Positions 11,397-28,168 of a DNA stretch of 34,576 nucleotides are shown here, piece by piece. This DNA is from Chloroflexota bacterium (GTDB lineage Bacteria; Chloroflexota; UBA6077; FW602-bin22; CADDYW01). A model generated the notes under the pieces. That model did no database searches, was not told the DNA's origin, and worked only from the letters and a program-made list of their open reading frames with translations. Made by a program: the position numbers and the translations under genes. Where the stretch lies: positions 1 through 34,576 of the forward strand of contig JAJPKB010000635.1 of NCBI GenBank assembly GCA_021323915.1, given 5' to 3'. Numbering within the stretch: the first letter of the stretch is position 1; each line of letters begins with the position of its first letter.

Positions 11397-13355
11397 TTAC
11401 GGAGTGCCGACCGCCGAGGGCACGGCGATGCGCACGTACTGGCGGCGGCGGCCACGAACGACCATACCGGGCGAGACGGCGATCGTCGCCCGGGGATCGG
11501 AGACCTTCTCCCCGTCGATCGACACGCTGCCCTGTTCGACCAGTCGTCTCGCGTCGCTCTTGCTCGACGCCAGGCCCAGCGCGACCAGCAGATCGGCGAT
11601 CGACCAGTCGCCGGCTCGGGGAAGCGCGACCTCCGGAACCTCGGCGGGCACCTCGTGACGCTGAACCTCCCGGGCGAAGCGCTCCGCCGCCACGCGCGCC
11701 AGCTCGGGCGAATGGAACTGGCTGACGACGTCGAACGCCAGCCGCTTCTTCAGATCCATCGGGTTCACCGTGCCGAGGGCGATCCGCTCAACCATCACGC
11801 GAAGCTCGCTCTCCGGCACGTCGGTCAGCAGCTCGAAGTAGCGCACGATCAGATCGTCTTTGAGCGACATCACTTTGCCGTACATCTCGTACGGCGGCTC
11901 AGCGATGCCGATCACGTTGTGGTAGCTCTTGCTCATTTTACGCCCGTCGGTTCCTTCGAGCAGCGGCACGGTGATGACGAACTTTTCCCGGTTCTGCAGC
12001 ACCCGAACGAGGGTACGACCGACGAGCATGTTGAAGGTCTGATCGGTCCCGCCGATCTCGGCGTCGACCTCGAGCGCGACGCTGTCGTAGCCCTGGAGGA
12101 GCGGATACAGGAACTCGTGCAGGCCGATCGGCTTGTTCTCTTCGAGCCGACGCTGGAACATGTCGCGCTGGAGCATCTGCTGGGCGGTGAAGTTGGCGGC
12201 CAGCTCGATCATGTCGCGGGTGGTCATCTTGTCCCACCACTCGCCGTTGTAGCGGATTTCCACCGGATTTGTCGGCGACTTGACGTCGAGAATGCGCGAT
12301 GCCTGCTCGATGTAGCTAGCGGCGTTTTCGAGCACCTCGGCGTGGGTGAGCTGAACGCGCATGGCGCTCTTGTCGGTGGGGTCGCCGATGCGGCCGGTGA
12401 AGTCGCCGATCAGAAAGACAATCTTGTTTCCCAGGTCCTGGAGCTGGCGGAGCTTCCGCAGGGCGACGGCGTGGCCCAGGTGGATGACCGGGCTGGTCGG
12501 ATCGACGCCCAGGTAGATGCGGATCGGCTGGCTGGCTCGCAGGCGGCGCTCCAGCTCCTCGCGCCCGACGATCTCGACGATGCCCCGTTCGAGGACGCGC
12601 TCGACAGGATCGGGCCCGCTGCGGACCGGCACCGGCAGGTCGACGACCGGATTATTCTTATCGACGAATGCCGTCCAGACCTTCGCGCCGAGGAGGGATT
12701 CGAGCGCGCGAGAAAGCTCGGCCGCCGCCTGGCGCACCGCGTCGTCGGTGAGGCCGACGAATCCGTCGATCGGGAAAAAGACGCCGCGGCTGGCGCCAGT
12801 CACTTTACCGCGCTCGCCCAGGCGCCAGACCCAGCGCCGGGTGCGCACGGCCTGCTCGTCGGCAAAGACGATCTCACCCGGCGGCACCGGCTCGCTCTCC
12901 GACTGCCCGAGGGGCGTGAAGCGATCGCCCTCCCGACTCTCCCGCACCCAGAAATCACCGCTCAGTCGATCGAGGTCGTGAGCGCCGACCGGCACCAGGA
13001 ATCCCAGACTCGCGGCGTTGGCGAGATCGACGGCCGGATTGATCCGGGGCGCTCCTTCGCCTTCGATCGCCCGCCGGGCAAGGGCCGCGATCGAGGGAGG
13101 GAACTCGACCGGGTTGATTCCGGCCCGACGAAACGCGTCGAGCCATGCCTTGATCCGCGGATTCGCGTCGAGCGGCTGGCCGTCGACCGTCTGGCGAAGC
13201 GCGCTGGCGGCGCGAGCGAGGAGTTCCTCGGCCTCCGGCGCCGGCCCGGCGTTGTCGAGGCCGGTGGCGACGACCACGCCCACGCAGTAACTCGGGAAGG
13301 ACGCGAGCACCTCGGGCGCGATTCCAAAGCGCATTGGCCTGCTGGCATCAGCCAT
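11397..13355 (-). CDS. tyrS: Tyrosyl-tRNA synthetase with N-terminal B3/4 domain
   Basis: Charges tRNA(Tyr) with tyrosine. The 652-residue protein is ~240 longer than a usual bacterial TyrRS. Residues ~1-225 form a B3/4 domain, as in free-standing B3/4 proteins and the editing module of PheRS beta: GVVVATGLDN, IKAWLDAFRRAGINPVEFPPSI, RINPAVDLANAASLGFLVPVGAHDLD, GEIVFAD and RGVFFPIDGF. The TyrRS core (about 235-560) has the class I motifs HLGH (~291) and KMSKS (~470) plus GGTDQTFN. An S4 RNA-binding domain ends the chain (SIADLLVALGLASSKSDARRLV). The frame is unbroken across the join, and no internal start with a ribosome site was found. AGGAGG precedes the ATG at 13355. A Tyr T-box lies upstream; the alpha/beta-hydrolase gene follows. 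Confidence 0.92.
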   Translation of the reverse strand: MADASRPMRFGIAPEVLASFPSYCVGVVVATGLDNAGPAPEAEELLARAASALRQTVDGQPLDANPRIKAWLDAFRRAGINPVEFPPSIAALARRAIEGEGAPRINPAVDLANAASLGFLVPVGAHDLDRLSGDFWVRESREGDRFTPLGQSESEPVPPGEIVFADEQAVRTRRWVWRLGERGKVTGASRGVFFPIDGFVGLTDDAVRQAAAELSRALESLLGAKVWTAFVDKNNPVVDLPVPVRSGPDPVERVLERGIVEIVGREELERRLRASQPIRIYLGVDPTSPVIHLGHAVALRKLRQLQDLGNKIVFLIGDFTGRIGDPTDKSAMRVQLTHAEVLENAASYIEQASRILDVKSPTNPVEIRYNGEWWDKMTTRDMIELAANFTAQQMLQRDMFQRRLEENKPIGLHEFLYPLLQGYDSVALEVDAEIGGTDQTFNMLVGRTLVRVLQNREKFVITVPLLEGTDGRKMSKSYHNVIGIAEPPYEMYGKVMSLKDDLIVRYFELLTDVPESELRVMVERIALGTVNPMDLKKRLAFDVVSQFHSPELARVAAERFAREVQRHEVPAEVPEVALPRAGDWSIADLLVALGLASSKSDARRLVEQGSVSIDGEKVSDPRATIAVSPGMVVRGRRRQYVRIAVPSAVGTP

Positions 13356-13390
13356 TCATGCACCTCCTGTCGGATTCCTGCGTGACAACG

Positions 13391-13420
13391 AAAAAACCTC
13401 TCGCCCACACGGGCGAGAGG
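13391..13420 (-). terminator. T-box attenuator terminator of tyrS
   Basis: Ten-base perfect stem CCTCTCGCCC / GGGCGAGAGG with a four-base loop, followed on the minus strand by TTTTTT. It competes with the antiterminator that contains the T-box sequence just upstream. Confidence 0.93.
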
Positions 13421-13672
13421 CTCGATAGCCTTCGCGGTACCACCGCGTTTTGTCGGCCACGGAACGCGGCCAACCTCGAAGCGCGGTAACGGGCGCGAAC
13501 CGGCGCACGCCTACTAGCTTGACGACCTCACCGTGGAGCGAAGTGGCACGATCGAGCGTTCGGGCGGCGACTCCGGAGGGTAATCACGACGTCGTTCACC
13601 GCGGGTCTCACACCAGCCGCCCGCTCTCTGAAGAGAACCTCGACGCCGCGCGTGTCTCCATCATCGTCTTTC
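13391..13672 (-). promoter_or_regulatory. T-box leader of tyrS (Tyr specifier UAC)
   Basis: The transcript upstream of tyrS has the marks of a transcriptional T-box. Stem I contains AGAGAGCGGGCGGCTGGTG; a candidate specifier TAC (13582-13580) lies in a loop followed by CCTCCGGAGTCGCC; the antiterminator contains GGTGGTACCGCG (13448-13433); and a terminator with a U run follows at once. Uncharged tRNA(Tyr) should pair with the UAC specifier and the T-box bulge and allow read-through into tyrS. The codon after which purine is usual is followed here by C, so the specifier assignment leans partly on the downstream gene. The 5' end is set from the -10 box at 13679-13684. Confidence 0.92.
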
Positions 13673-13678
13673 ACGCAT

Positions 13679-24419: not shown

Positions 24420-27400
24420 TCAGGTCGAGTAGTACTTCGCCTCGGGGTGGTGCGCGACCAGCGCCGCGGTCGACTGCTCCGGCATGAACTGCCAGCCGTC
24501 GGTGAGGCGCATGCCGGCCTGCTCGATGCGCAGGAGGCGTGCGAGCTTCTCGTGCTCGCTCAGCTCCGGACACGCCGGATAGCCCCAGGAGTAGCGGCGC
24601 CCCTGCTCCGCCGGAATACCAAGCTCCTGACGCACCCGCGCGTGGACGTACTCCGCGAGCGCCTCGGCGCACTGGGTCGCGAAGCCGTGGAGGTAGTAGC
24701 TCTCGGTGTACTTGCCCTGGCGGTTCAGCTCGTCGCACAGCTCGTCGGCGCAGCGACCGACCGTTACCGCCTGGAGCGGCAGAACGTCGACGCGGCCCGA
24801 GCCAACCTCCGCGAAATAGTCGGCGAGACAAAGCCGCTCGTTCGCCGGTTGGCGCGGGAAGCTGAACCGCTCGAGCACGCGCGCCGCGTCGGATCCCGCG
24901 CCGGTGCGCAGCCGGGCCAGCCCCTCGCCATCGTTCGGATCGTAGACGAGAACGTCGTTACCATCCGCCTGGGCCGGGAAGTATCCGTAGACCGCTTCGG
25001 GCTGGATGTCGCCGCGGTCGCGCGCCGCGCGCTTCAGCTCTTCGAGGCGTGGATAGTACTCTTCTTCGAGTAGCTTTTCCCAGGCGCTGCCTTCGCGGTT
25101 CTTCGCTCCCCAGTGCAGGCGGAAAAGCGTCTTGAGGTCCAGGTGCTTGAACACGTCGTCGAGCGGAATCGGCGCGCGGGCCTCCGCCGCGGTCGCTCCC
25201 CGGCGCGCCCGCGCGCGGATCGATCCACCCAGCAGACGGACGCCCCAGAACGGGGGCGTCGGAATCGGCACCGCGCGGCTCACCTTGGAGCGCGCCACGA
25301 GCCGCGCGGCCGGATCCACCACCGAGCGGTCCGGACGGTTCTTTCCGAGATCGATCCTGGCTTTTTCGCTGAGCCGGGCGCGGAGCTCGCCTCGTCGGTC
25401 CGGGTCGGTGAGCTTGTCCACCGTCTCCAAACCCTCGAAGGCATCCTTACAATAGAAGACGCCGGGCTCGTACTCGGTGCCCTCGTCGACGTAGAGCGCC
25501 CGATAACCAAATCCGCGGTTGATCGCCGCGCCGCCGATCAGGACCGGATAGTTCAGCCCGCGCCGGTGCAGCTCCTGAACGCAGAGCGGCATCTGCTTCG
25601 AGGTGGTGACGAGCAGCGCGGACAGGCCAATCGCCGTCGCCTGGACCTCCTGGGCCTTGTCGATAATCGTGTTCAACGGCACCTGCTTGCCGAGATCGTA
25701 GACGGTGTAGCCGTTGTTGCTCAGAATCGTGCAGACCAGGTTCTTGCCGATGTCGTGAACGTCTCCGAAAACCGTCGCGACGACTACCTTCCCTTTGGTG
25801 TAGCCCTCTTTCTTCTCCAGGAACTGCTCCAGGTGGGCGACCGATCGCTTCATCACCTCGGCCGACTGGAGCACGAACGGCAGGATCAGCTCGCCCGCCC
25901 CGAAGCGGTCTCCGACGTCCTTCATCGCCGGCAGCAAGATCTCGTTGAGGACCTCGACCGGCGAGTGTCGGGTCAGTGCCTCGTCGATCAGCGCTTCGAT
26001 GTTGTCTTTTTTACGATGGAGGATCTGCTGGTGAATCCGCTGCTCGGCCGGCAGATCGGCAAAGGGATCTCCGGCTTGCCCCCGGTCGGCCTGATCGGGC
26101 TGCTTGGCTTCGAAGTAGTTGATGTACCGGGCAAGCGCGTCCGGTCGTCGGTTGTAGATCAGATCCTCGGCCAGCCCGCGCTCCTCGGCGGGAATATCGG
26201 CGTAAGGCGTGACGTGATTGGGATTGACGATCGCCAGGTCGAGCCCGTGCTTGACGGCGTGATAGAGAAACACGCTGTTCAGCACCGCTCTGGCCTGCTG
26301 ACCAACGCCGAACGACACGTTCGACACGCCCAGGATCGTCAGAACGCCCGGTAAGCGCTCCTTGATCAGCCGAATCCCCTCGAGGGTCTGGATGCCGGAG
26401 TCGACGAGATCCTCCTGGCCGGTCACCAGGGGGAAGGTCTGCACGTCGAAAATCAGCGAATCAGGGGCGAGGCCGTACTCGTCGCGGGCGATGTCGTGGA
26501 TCCGGCGGGCGATCTCGTACTTCCGCTCGGCGGTCTTGGCCATGCCCTGCTCGTCGATCGTCATCGCCACGACGCAGGCGCCGTGCTCGACGGCGAGCGG
26601 CAGGATCGTATCCACGCGCTCGGCGCGGTTCTCAAGGTTGATGGAATTGAGGATGGCGCGGCCGGGATACTGCTTCAGCGCCGTCTCCATCACCTTCCAC
26701 TCGGTGGAGTCGATCACCAGCGGCGCTTCGACGCCCATCGCCAGCTTCTTCACCAGCGCGCGCATCTGGTCGGCCTCGTCGGTCCGCTCGGTCATGGCCA
26801 CACAGACGTCGAGGGCGTGTGCGCCGCCCTCGACCTGGTCGCGCGCGACCTGGAGCACGCCGTCGTAGTCGTCCTTGATCAGCATGCGCTTGACCGCCCG
26901 GGACCCCACCGAGTTCACCCGCTCGCCAACCAGCATCGGCGCGGGCTCCTGGCGAAGCGGAATGGCACGCATGCCACTCGACACCATCGGCGCCGAGGCG
27001 ACCTCGCGGCGCCGGGGCTTCCGACCGCCGATCCGCTCGACGACCCGGGCCAGGTGGGCCGGGGTGGTGCCGCAGCAGCCGCCGACGACCGACACCCCCA
27101 GGTCGACGACGAACTCGTAAAGCGCATCCGCGAGCTCAGCCGGCTGCAGAGGGTAGCACTCGCCGGTCGGCGTGTTGAGAGGCAGGCCCGCGTTGGGGAT
27201 GACCGAGATCGGCAGGCGGCTCCGCTCGCAGAGGTAGCGGACCGGCTCGCGCATGTGCTCCGGACCGGTCGAGCAGTTGAGGCCGATGATCTGAATCGGA
27301 AGCGCCTGCAGCGTCGCCAGCACCGCGCCGATGTCCGTCCCGAGGAGCATGCGTCCGGTCAGGTCCAGCGTCACCTGGGCCTGGATCGGCACCCGGCGCC

Positions 27401-27962
27401 CGGTACGCTTGAACGTCCGCACGATTCCAGCGATCGCCGCCCTGGTCTCGAGGATATCCTGCTGGGTCTCGATCAGCAGCAGGTCGACGCCGGCTTCGAT
27501 CAGCGCCCGCGCCTGCTCGCCGTAGACGTTCGCCAGCTCATCGAACGTGACGTTGCCGAGGGTCGGATCGTCGGATGACGGCAGCATACCCGTCGGTCCG
27601 AGCGAGCCGGCCACGAAGATCGGGTGCGTTGGGGTCGCGAAGGCGGCGGCGGCTCGGCGTGCGATCTCGACCGCGGCGCGATTGATCTCGTCGTGGCGGT
27701 CTTGCAGCCCGTACTCGGCGAGCTTGAGCCGGCTCGCTTGAAACGTGTTCGTTTCCAGCACGTCCACGCCCACCGTGCAGAAACCGGCGTGAATCCGCTC
27801 GATCACGTCGGGGCGGGTGACGCTCAGGAAGTCGTTACAACCGACCTTGCCGCCAAAGTCCTCCGCGCCCAGGTTGAAGGTCTGGATCGACGACCCCATC
27901 GCGCCGTCGAAGATGACGACGCGCTCGGCCAGGACGTCCAAGAAGCTCGGGTGCTTTTCCAT
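24420..27962 (-). CDS. metH: Cobalamin-dependent methionine synthase MetH
   Basis: Methylates homocysteine to methionine with methyl-tetrahydrofolate via B12. At 1180 residues it has all modules: homocysteine domain (FDGAMGSSIQ; zinc ligands in GLNCSTGP and VGGCCGTTP); pterin domain (LVGERVNSVGSRAVKRML, FDVQTFPLVTGQED); cap and B12 domain with the cobalt-binding DVHDIGKNL and GLSALLVTTSKQM; and the activation domain ending in RYSWGYPACPEL. The ATG at 27962 gives the family start MEKHPSFLDVL; the longer ORF-track start runs into the divergent promoter. A TGCTATACT box only 10 bases upstream implies almost no leader, so no riboswitch can sit on metH itself. A methyltransferase gene follows. Confidence 0.95.
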   Translation of the reverse strand: MEKHPSFLDVLAERVVIFDGAMGSSIQTFNLGAEDFGGKVGCNDFLSVTRPDVIERIHAGFCTVGVDVLETNTFQASRLKLAEYGLQDRHDEINRAAVEIARRAAAAFATPTHPIFVAGSLGPTGMLPSSDDPTLGNVTFDELANVYGEQARALIEAGVDLLLIETQQDILETRAAIAGIVRTFKRTGRRVPIQAQVTLDLTGRMLLGTDIGAVLATLQALPIQIIGLNCSTGPEHMREPVRYLCERSRLPISVIPNAGLPLNTPTGECYPLQPAELADALYEFVVDLGVSVVGGCCGTTPAHLARVVERIGGRKPRRREVASAPMVSSGMRAIPLRQEPAPMLVGERVNSVGSRAVKRMLIKDDYDGVLQVARDQVEGGAHALDVCVAMTERTDEADQMRALVKKLAMGVEAPLVIDSTEWKVMETALKQYPGRAILNSINLENRAERVDTILPLAVEHGACVVAMTIDEQGMAKTAERKYEIARRIHDIARDEYGLAPDSLIFDVQTFPLVTGQEDLVDSGIQTLEGIRLIKERLPGVLTILGVSNVSFGVGQQARAVLNSVFLYHAVKHGLDLAIVNPNHVTPYADIPAEERGLAEDLIYNRRPDALARYINYFEAKQPDQADRGQAGDPFADLPAEQRIHQQILHRKKDNIEALIDEALTRHSPVEVLNEILLPAMKDVGDRFGAGELILPFVLQSAEVMKRSVAHLEQFLEKKEGYTKGKVVVATVFGDVHDIGKNLVCTILSNNGYTVYDLGKQVPLNTIIDKAQEVQATAIGLSALLVTTSKQMPLCVQELHRRGLNYPVLIGGAAINRGFGYRALYVDEGTEYEPGVFYCKDAFEGLETVDKLTDPDRRGELRARLSEKARIDLGKNRPDRSVVDPAARLVARSKVSRAVPIPTPPFWGVRLLGGSIRARARRGATAAEARAPIPLDDVFKHLDLKTLFRLHWGAKNREGSAWEKLLEEEYYPRLEELKRAARDRGDIQPEAVYGYFPAQADGNDVLVYDPNDGEGLARLRTGAGSDAARVLERFSFPRQPANERLCLADYFAEVGSGRVDVLPLQAVTVGRCADELCDELNRQGKYTESYYLHGFATQCAEALAEYVHARVRQELGIPAEQGRRYSWGYPACPELSEHEKLARLLRIEQAGMRLTDGWQFMPEQSTAALVAHHPEAKYYST

Positions 27963-27972
27963 TGGCGTTTCA

Positions 27973-27981
27973 AGTATAGCA
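27973..27981 (-). promoter_or_regulatory. Extended -10 promoter of metH
   Basis: Minus strand TGCTATACT, inside TATGCTATACTT, ten bases before the metH ATG. It is identical over those 12 bases to the box at 30947-30958. The transcript would start 2-4 bases before the ATG. Confidence 0.6.
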
Positions 27982-28005
27982 TACCGCAAACGGCGCGCCG
28001 AATCG

Positions 28006-28034
28006 TTGACAACCGGACGACGGCATGGTAGAGT
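28006..28034 (+). promoter_or_regulatory. Sigma-70 promoter of the methionine leader
   Basis: TTGACA, 17 bases, TAGAGT: a perfect -35 and a near-consensus -10. The expected start is about 28041, just before the SAM-I aptamer. It is back to back with the metH promoter, about 28 bases apart. Confidence 0.85.
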
Positions 28035-28054
28035 ACGGCAACAATCGAATAGCA

Positions 28055-28168
28055 CGCGCTCTTATCCAGAGTGGCGGAGGGAAACGGCCCGACGAAGCCC
28101 GGCAACCGGTGGCGCTTCGAGCAGCACACGGTGCCAACTCCGGCAGAGCAATTCTGCGAGATAAGGGG
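28055..28168 (+). promoter_or_regulatory. SAM-I (S-box) riboswitch
   Basis: A full S-box core: P1 CTTATC (28061-28066) pairs with GATAAG (28160-28165). Between are GAGGGAAACGGCCCGACGAAG, CCCGGCAACC, GGTGCCAACTCCGGCAGAG and GCGAGATAAG, in the order and spacing of the SAM-I consensus. Binding of S-adenosylmethionine should favour the terminator that follows. Class members control methionine and SAM genes. Confidence 0.95.

Follow-up and report, generated by a model that had tools for sequence, protein, structure and literature searches.

A natural tyrosyl-tRNA synthetase fused to a CtdA-like B3/4 domain in Chloroflexota: a candidate for editing of tRNA(Tyr) in cis

Introduction

Tyrosyl-tRNA synthetase (TyrRS) is generally considered accurate enough without an editing domain. 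A 2024 review (PMC11295145) describes appended editing domains for LeuRS, ValRS, IleRS, ThrRS, AlaRS, ProRS and PheRS, and TyrRS is not among them. In PheRS, editing is done by a B3/4 domain, in which Glu334 and Gly315 recognize the para-hydroxyl group of Tyr, while His261, Asn250 and Glu323 lie near the ester bond (all in Thermus numbering; PMC3275996). A G318W substitution in E. coli PheRS abolishes editing (PMC4066437). The B3/4 protein CtdA is a proven deacylase that hydrolyses canavanyl-tRNA(Arg) (PMC10018355, Hauth et al. 2023). An engineered combination is also on record: in work by Oki from 2008, an iodo-TyrRS carrying the B3/B4 module of an archaeal PheRS edited Tyr-tRNA(Tyr) (described in PMC3275996; cited in PMC6412442).

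Here, we describe a gene from a Chloroflexota bacterium in which a B3/4 domain is joined in frame to the front of a TyrRS, as an earlier note on this DNA had proposed. The whole stretch of DNA analyzed, 34,576 nt in length, is called the window throughout.

Results

Organization and spread of the fusion gene

The tyrS fusion gene spans positions 11397–13355 of the window, stop codon included, and is a single open frame of 652 codons on the minus strand; the earlier note had the coordinates right and gave no strand. The features described below are on the same strand unless stated otherwise. A Shine–Dalgarno sequence, AGGAGG (13363–13368), lies 7 nt 5' of the start codon (ATG at 13355). According to the open frame and its domain matches, the 652-aa product consists of a B3/4 tRNA-deacylase-type domain (residues 8–236; 12648–13334), a short linker of about 16 residues (237–252; 12600–12647), the TyrRS catalytic region (253–560; 11676–12599) and an S4 RNA-binding domain (588–623; 11487–11594). 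The genes surrounding the fusion (alpha/beta hydrolase, DinB_2, gyrA, NUDIX, mutL and ilvD) gave no clue to a substrate. Elsewhere in the window, a SAM riboswitch match (28059–28167, plus strand) adjoins an ORF for B12-dependent methionine synthase (24420–28055, minus strand).

The fusion was found as one uninterrupted frame in 14 Chloroflexota species from six family-level groups: four species in the source's own family (f1), two in f2, one each in f8, f16 and f93, and five in f80, where all five listed members carry it. Because the fusion recurs in this way, both an assembly artefact and chance were ruled out, and the proposed in-frame arrangement is borne out by the open frame, by the Pfam and NCBIfam domains and by this taxonomic spread. 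A contig scan with strict patterns found fusions only in Chloroflexi (L004 and L005 are named Chloroflexi MAG contigs), and no fusion was found on plasmids. The same order and phylum also include TyrRS enzymes of this type that are unfused, and many Chloroflexota have free-standing B3/4 proteins. In TyrRS trees, which have a weak backbone, the fused enzymes cluster; in B3/4 trees, the nearest relatives of the fused domains are the free-standing proteins of family f52, which group with them. A single clade of fused B3/4 domains was not rejected (p-AU 0.39), and at least two changes are needed on each tree. A related TyrRS without the B3/4 domain is found in genome G076 (L040:1342–2739). It starts with a FLDAEHP stretch resembling the last B3/4 strand, which would fit a later loss of the domain, a resemblance that is only suggestive.

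The TyrRS part and its T-box leader

Pfam tRNA-synt_1b matched residues 276–561 (E 1.5e-71), NCBIfam tyrS matched residues 252–644 (366.9 bits against a cut-off of 113.8) and Pfam S4 matched the C-terminal domain (E 6.5e-9); together, the TyrRS and S4 part spans residues ~252–645. When this part of the AlphaFold (AF2) model was searched with Foldseek, the best match was the T. thermophilus TyrRS–tRNA complex 9sfq. The hallmarks of a bacterial TyrRS are all present: the HIGH motif, here HLGH (residues 292–295; 12471–12482), and the KMSKS motif (residues 473–477; 11925–11939) are intact, and the S4 domain is C-terminal to them. Apart from the fusion, the source genome, whose assembly is 94% complete, yielded no TyrRS and no comparable B3/4 match. 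The gene also lies behind a T-box leader whose specifier is probably UAC, and so the fusion is, by all sequence indications, the housekeeping TyrRS of the source bacterium.

The T-box leader riboswitch (13406–13673) matched the full Rfam RF00230 model (1–219) with 67.1 bits (E 2.1e-14). The gathering score of 93 was not reached, and routine annotation would therefore miss the leader. In the Rfam consensus alignment, the probable specifier codon UAC (Tyr) falls in stem I at 13580–13582. The T-box sequence CGCGGTGGTACCGCG lies at 13433–13447, and a terminator hairpin followed by a T run, constituting the attenuator, lies at 13394–13423 between the T-box and the ATG. A leader with the same UUACCCUC (UUAC) also precedes the fusions in L009, L010, L011, L012 and L113, and no T-box was found upstream of the f2, f16 and f80 fusions.

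Residue 281 of the fusion (codon at ~12513–12515) is a Tyr, whereas Thermus TyrRS has Lys41 there; we take the position to be equivalent to Tyr34 of B. stearothermophilus TyrRS. Tyr occupies it in 7/7 fusions of f1, f2 and f8, and Lys in 7/7 of the other fusions and in 23/23 unfused TyrRS of the same type. The amino-acid pocket of the TyrRS is predicted to be changed in this f1/f2/f8 subgroup, which is the source's own. In fusions of f16, f80 and f93 (L038, L039, L111, L112, L113, L119 and L120), HIGH is replaced by HIGR, HVGR or HLGR, and KMSKS by KMSTS or KMSSS; in genome G287, no other TyrRS was seen despite the altered motifs of its fusion.

Identity and fold of the B3/4 domain

Pfam B3_4 matched residues 71–201 (E 5.3e-23), covering profile positions 2–129 of 174. 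The best phmmer matches of the fused domain were the CtdA sequences 9f7e (E 1.2e-21) and 9mkl (E 1.3e-20), whereas similarity to PheRS was at E 0.016 or weaker. A domain-only AF2 model, generated from an alignment of four rows, had a pLDDT of 80.8 and a pTM of 0.81. Its best PDB matches were again CtdA, over the whole length (TM 0.77–0.82, 225–230 columns), while Foldseek matched many PheRS beta chains with E values down to 3e-12 and TMq of 0.53–0.58, with 0.58 as the maximum. The full-length AF2 model was good for the TyrRS and had low confidence in the B3/4 core, because only three B3/4 rows were usable. A search of viral contigs for B3/4 homologues that might deepen the alignment found none.

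The earlier note had described a complete B3/4 domain. "Complete" holds for the free-standing type, because the predicted domain aligns over its whole length with the CtdA structures. The homology to PheRS also stands at the level of fold, but membership in the PheRS editing domain does not, given the much stronger matches to CtdA; the domain sits on a TyrRS, and the genome has a separate, complete pheT. With CtdA-like proteins it shares whole-domain similarity in sequence and fold, though it is not a separate, single-domain protein. By its matches and its predicted fold, the fused domain is a member of the free-standing (CtdA-like) B3/4 family and not a PheRS editing domain.

Pocket residues and selection

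The earlier note had named loss of the residues lining the PheRS editing pocket as evidence against its proposal, and in the fusion this pocket is in large part replaced. PheRS Asn254 (Tth Asn250) corresponds to Asn113 in 14/14 fusions and Pro263 to Pro122 in 13/14, while His265 (Tth His261) is replaced by Gly124 and Glu334 by Pro195, both in 14/14. Gly318 is replaced by Leu in the source fusion and by Gln or Glu in the others. In the alignment, CtdA likewise lacks the PheRS His and Glu. Because CtdA is active without them, the PheRS pocket is no test for a CtdA-like family, and the loss of these two residues is no argument against catalysis in the fused domain. What the replacements do argue against, on sequence grounds, is a PheRS-like preference for Tyr.

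Invariant in all 14 fusions are Asn113, Gly124, His126, Asp127, Arg171, Thr172, Arg173, Trp175, Arg178, Phe194, Pro195 and Asp197, although the B3/4 domains of distant fusions are only ~41–46% identical to that of the source; this is a pattern expected of a working active site. No pocket residue of the fusions was absent from every free-standing relative, and the f52 proteins have most of them. The His126/Arg171/FPID signature is not specific to the fusion, since free-standing f52 proteins encoded away from tyrS carry it too. In 4/4 genomes read, the f52 gene lies directly 3' of a glycosyltransferase gene, whose best NCBIfam match, below cut-off, is MshA (L125:2745–4771, L126:4045–6176, L127:1827–4032 and L128:4065–6119; selA is nearby in two). 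These neighbors gave no clue to a substrate.

Among the four f1 species, dN/dS was 0.12–0.21 for the B3/4 domain, 0.12–0.20 for S4, 0.09–0.16 for the TyrRS core and 0.14–0.55 for the linker, which was less constrained than the domains in most pairs. Purifying selection therefore acts on the B3/4 domain, much as it does on S4.

Discussion

We rate it as slightly better than an even bet that the protein is a housekeeping TyrRS with a CtdA-like deacylase that clears tRNA(Tyr) charged with a tyrosine analogue in cis and spares Tyr, the substrate being arrived at by exclusion. Once charged, tRNA(Tyr) would move its 3' end from the TyrRS active site to the B3/4 pocket, where a tyrosine-like wrong amino acid attached by the same TyrRS would be hydrolyzed off. 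The engineered iodo-TyrRS chimera edits Tyr-tRNA(Tyr) (PMC3275996), so the tRNA 3' end is within reach of a B3/4 domain placed on a TyrRS. Candidate targets would be Phe, ring-substituted Tyr, and oxidized or natural-product analogues such as DOPA, meta-Tyr and azatyrosine; an azatyrosine-type antimetabolite is suggested by analogy with canavanine and CtdA. Tyr-tRNA(Tyr) itself would be left intact, because the PheRS residue that reads the para-hydroxyl, Glu334, is Pro here. The fused domain would thus proofread tRNA(Tyr) in cis much as CtdA proofreads tRNA(Arg) in trans. Counting against this reading are the low confidence of the B3/4 core in the full-length model, by which the domain could be placed relative to the TyrRS, the pocket signature shared with free-standing f52 proteins, and the related TyrRS of G076 that has no B3/4 domain. 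Under the T-box leader, editing would also generate more uncharged tRNA(Tyr) and thus raise expression of the fusion, a feedback that may be expected from the arrangement.

It is improbable, though worth keeping in view, that the B3/4 domain acts in trans on another tRNA, such as canavanyl-tRNA(Arg), with the TyrRS only setting its level and location. The closest solved and characterized relatives of the domain are indeed CtdA proteins, and the substrate of the free-standing f52 sister group, which is not near tyrS, need not involve tRNA(Tyr). However, CtdA is on a long separate branch of the tree, its pocket differs (PVGGEN/FILE against PVGAHD/FPID in the fusion), and the attachment of the fused domain to the cell's one TyrRS, in a gene headed by a Tyr T-box, speaks for tRNA(Tyr). 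A canavanine operon or a guanidine riboswitch is a frequent, if not strictly defining, context of CtdA; the fusion locus does not have this context, and no guanidine riboswitch was found within the 34,576-nt window.

Improbable to a similar degree is a non-catalytic role, in which the B3/4 domain would be kept as structure, as an extra tRNA-binding or dimer-stabilizing module. Many synthetases carry appended domains without a catalytic function, and the catalytic-site residues His265 and Glu334 of PheRS are missing here. On the other hand, domain-specific polar residues are invariant in 14/14 fusions, and CtdA is active without the same two PheRS residues (PMC10018355).

Removal of D-Tyr from tRNA(Tyr) seems quite unlikely. 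TyrRS enzymes do charge D-Tyr, but DTD is present in the source genome, separate from the fusion, and in 6/7 fused genomes of the class, as often as in unfused ones (those without a match were G004, fused, and G008, G024 and G026, unfused). The fusion showed no correlation with the absence of DTD.

Very unlikely, too, is that the domain keeps the PheRS task of removing Tyr or meta-Tyr, in trans, from tRNA(Phe). The homologous fold speaks for it, but Glu334 and His265 are lost, and specificity for Tyr would turn the domain against the correctly charged Tyr-tRNA(Tyr) that its own synthetase makes; this would be futile, and where the cell has no other TyrRS it would be lethal or a waste. The genome has a separate PheRS, and its PheT has the Asn, His and Glu editing residues intact, so that clearing of Tyr-tRNA(Phe) by the fusion is unlikely to be needed; for the same reason, lost PheRS editing was rejected as the reason for the fusion. 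With intact PheRS editing and DTD in place, both duties would be redundant for the fused domain. Among the uses listed in the earlier note, several still stand, while these two are disfavored.

Least likely of all is an internal start that would yield two proteins, the fusion as such having no function, a concern raised by the earlier note: in the relative L039, whose linker is longer, an in-frame ATG (codon 281) follows AGCAGG within the linker and might let the TyrRS be made alone, but in the source gene no ATG, GTG or TTG with a 5/6 ribosome-site match was found in the junction stretch (~residues 206–263).

Editing of analogue-charged tRNA(Tyr) in cis is, then, the reading that we carry forward. 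In its widest form, it holds that a naturally occurring TyrRS carries a domain for post-transfer editing in cis, drawn from a free-standing B3/4 family of antimetabolite defence and tuned to an analogue while sparing Tyr; we put the chances of this at just about even. If true, one more synthetase would have an appended editing domain. That several lineages retain a conserved domain of editing type on their only TyrRS suggests that these cells encounter a look-alike of tyrosine which the synthetase fails to discriminate against, and the question of what the fused domain rejects is directly testable. The fusion could also serve as a natural part for genetic-code engineering, as an editing module for tRNA(Tyr) that would not entail loss of Tyr-tRNA(Tyr).

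Comparison with known systems

No report of a natural TyrRS with an editing-type domain was found in the open-access literature searched; the parts are known, and their combination as a natural protein is undescribed in that literature. The catalytic, linker and S4 part is the same as in TyrRS of the Thermus thermophilus/Acinetobacter type (PDB 1h3e, 9sfq and 6bqy), which, unlike the fusion, has no editing domain. The B3/4 domain of the bacterial PheRS beta subunit has a homologous fold and the equivalents of Asn254 and Pro263 in common with the fused domain, but lies within PheT, edits Tyr- and meta-Tyr-tRNA(Phe), and has His265, Gly318 and Glu334 where the fusion has replacements. CtdA (PDB 9f7e and 9mkl) shares the whole-domain fold together with the Asn and Pro of that fold; it is, however, free-standing rather than attached to a TyrRS, acts on tRNA(Arg), carries GGEN/FILE motifs and is distant in the tree. 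The free-standing f52 proteins have the same FPID, His126 and Arg171 signature but, unlike the fused domain, are encoded by separate genes not near tyrS. Lastly, the 2008 chimera has a B3/4 module joined to a TyrRS just as the natural protein has, but it is man-made and destroys Tyr-tRNA(Tyr) deliberately, whereas the natural fusion must spare Tyr-tRNA(Tyr); with this difference, the natural fusion looks like the counterpart of that engineered enzyme.
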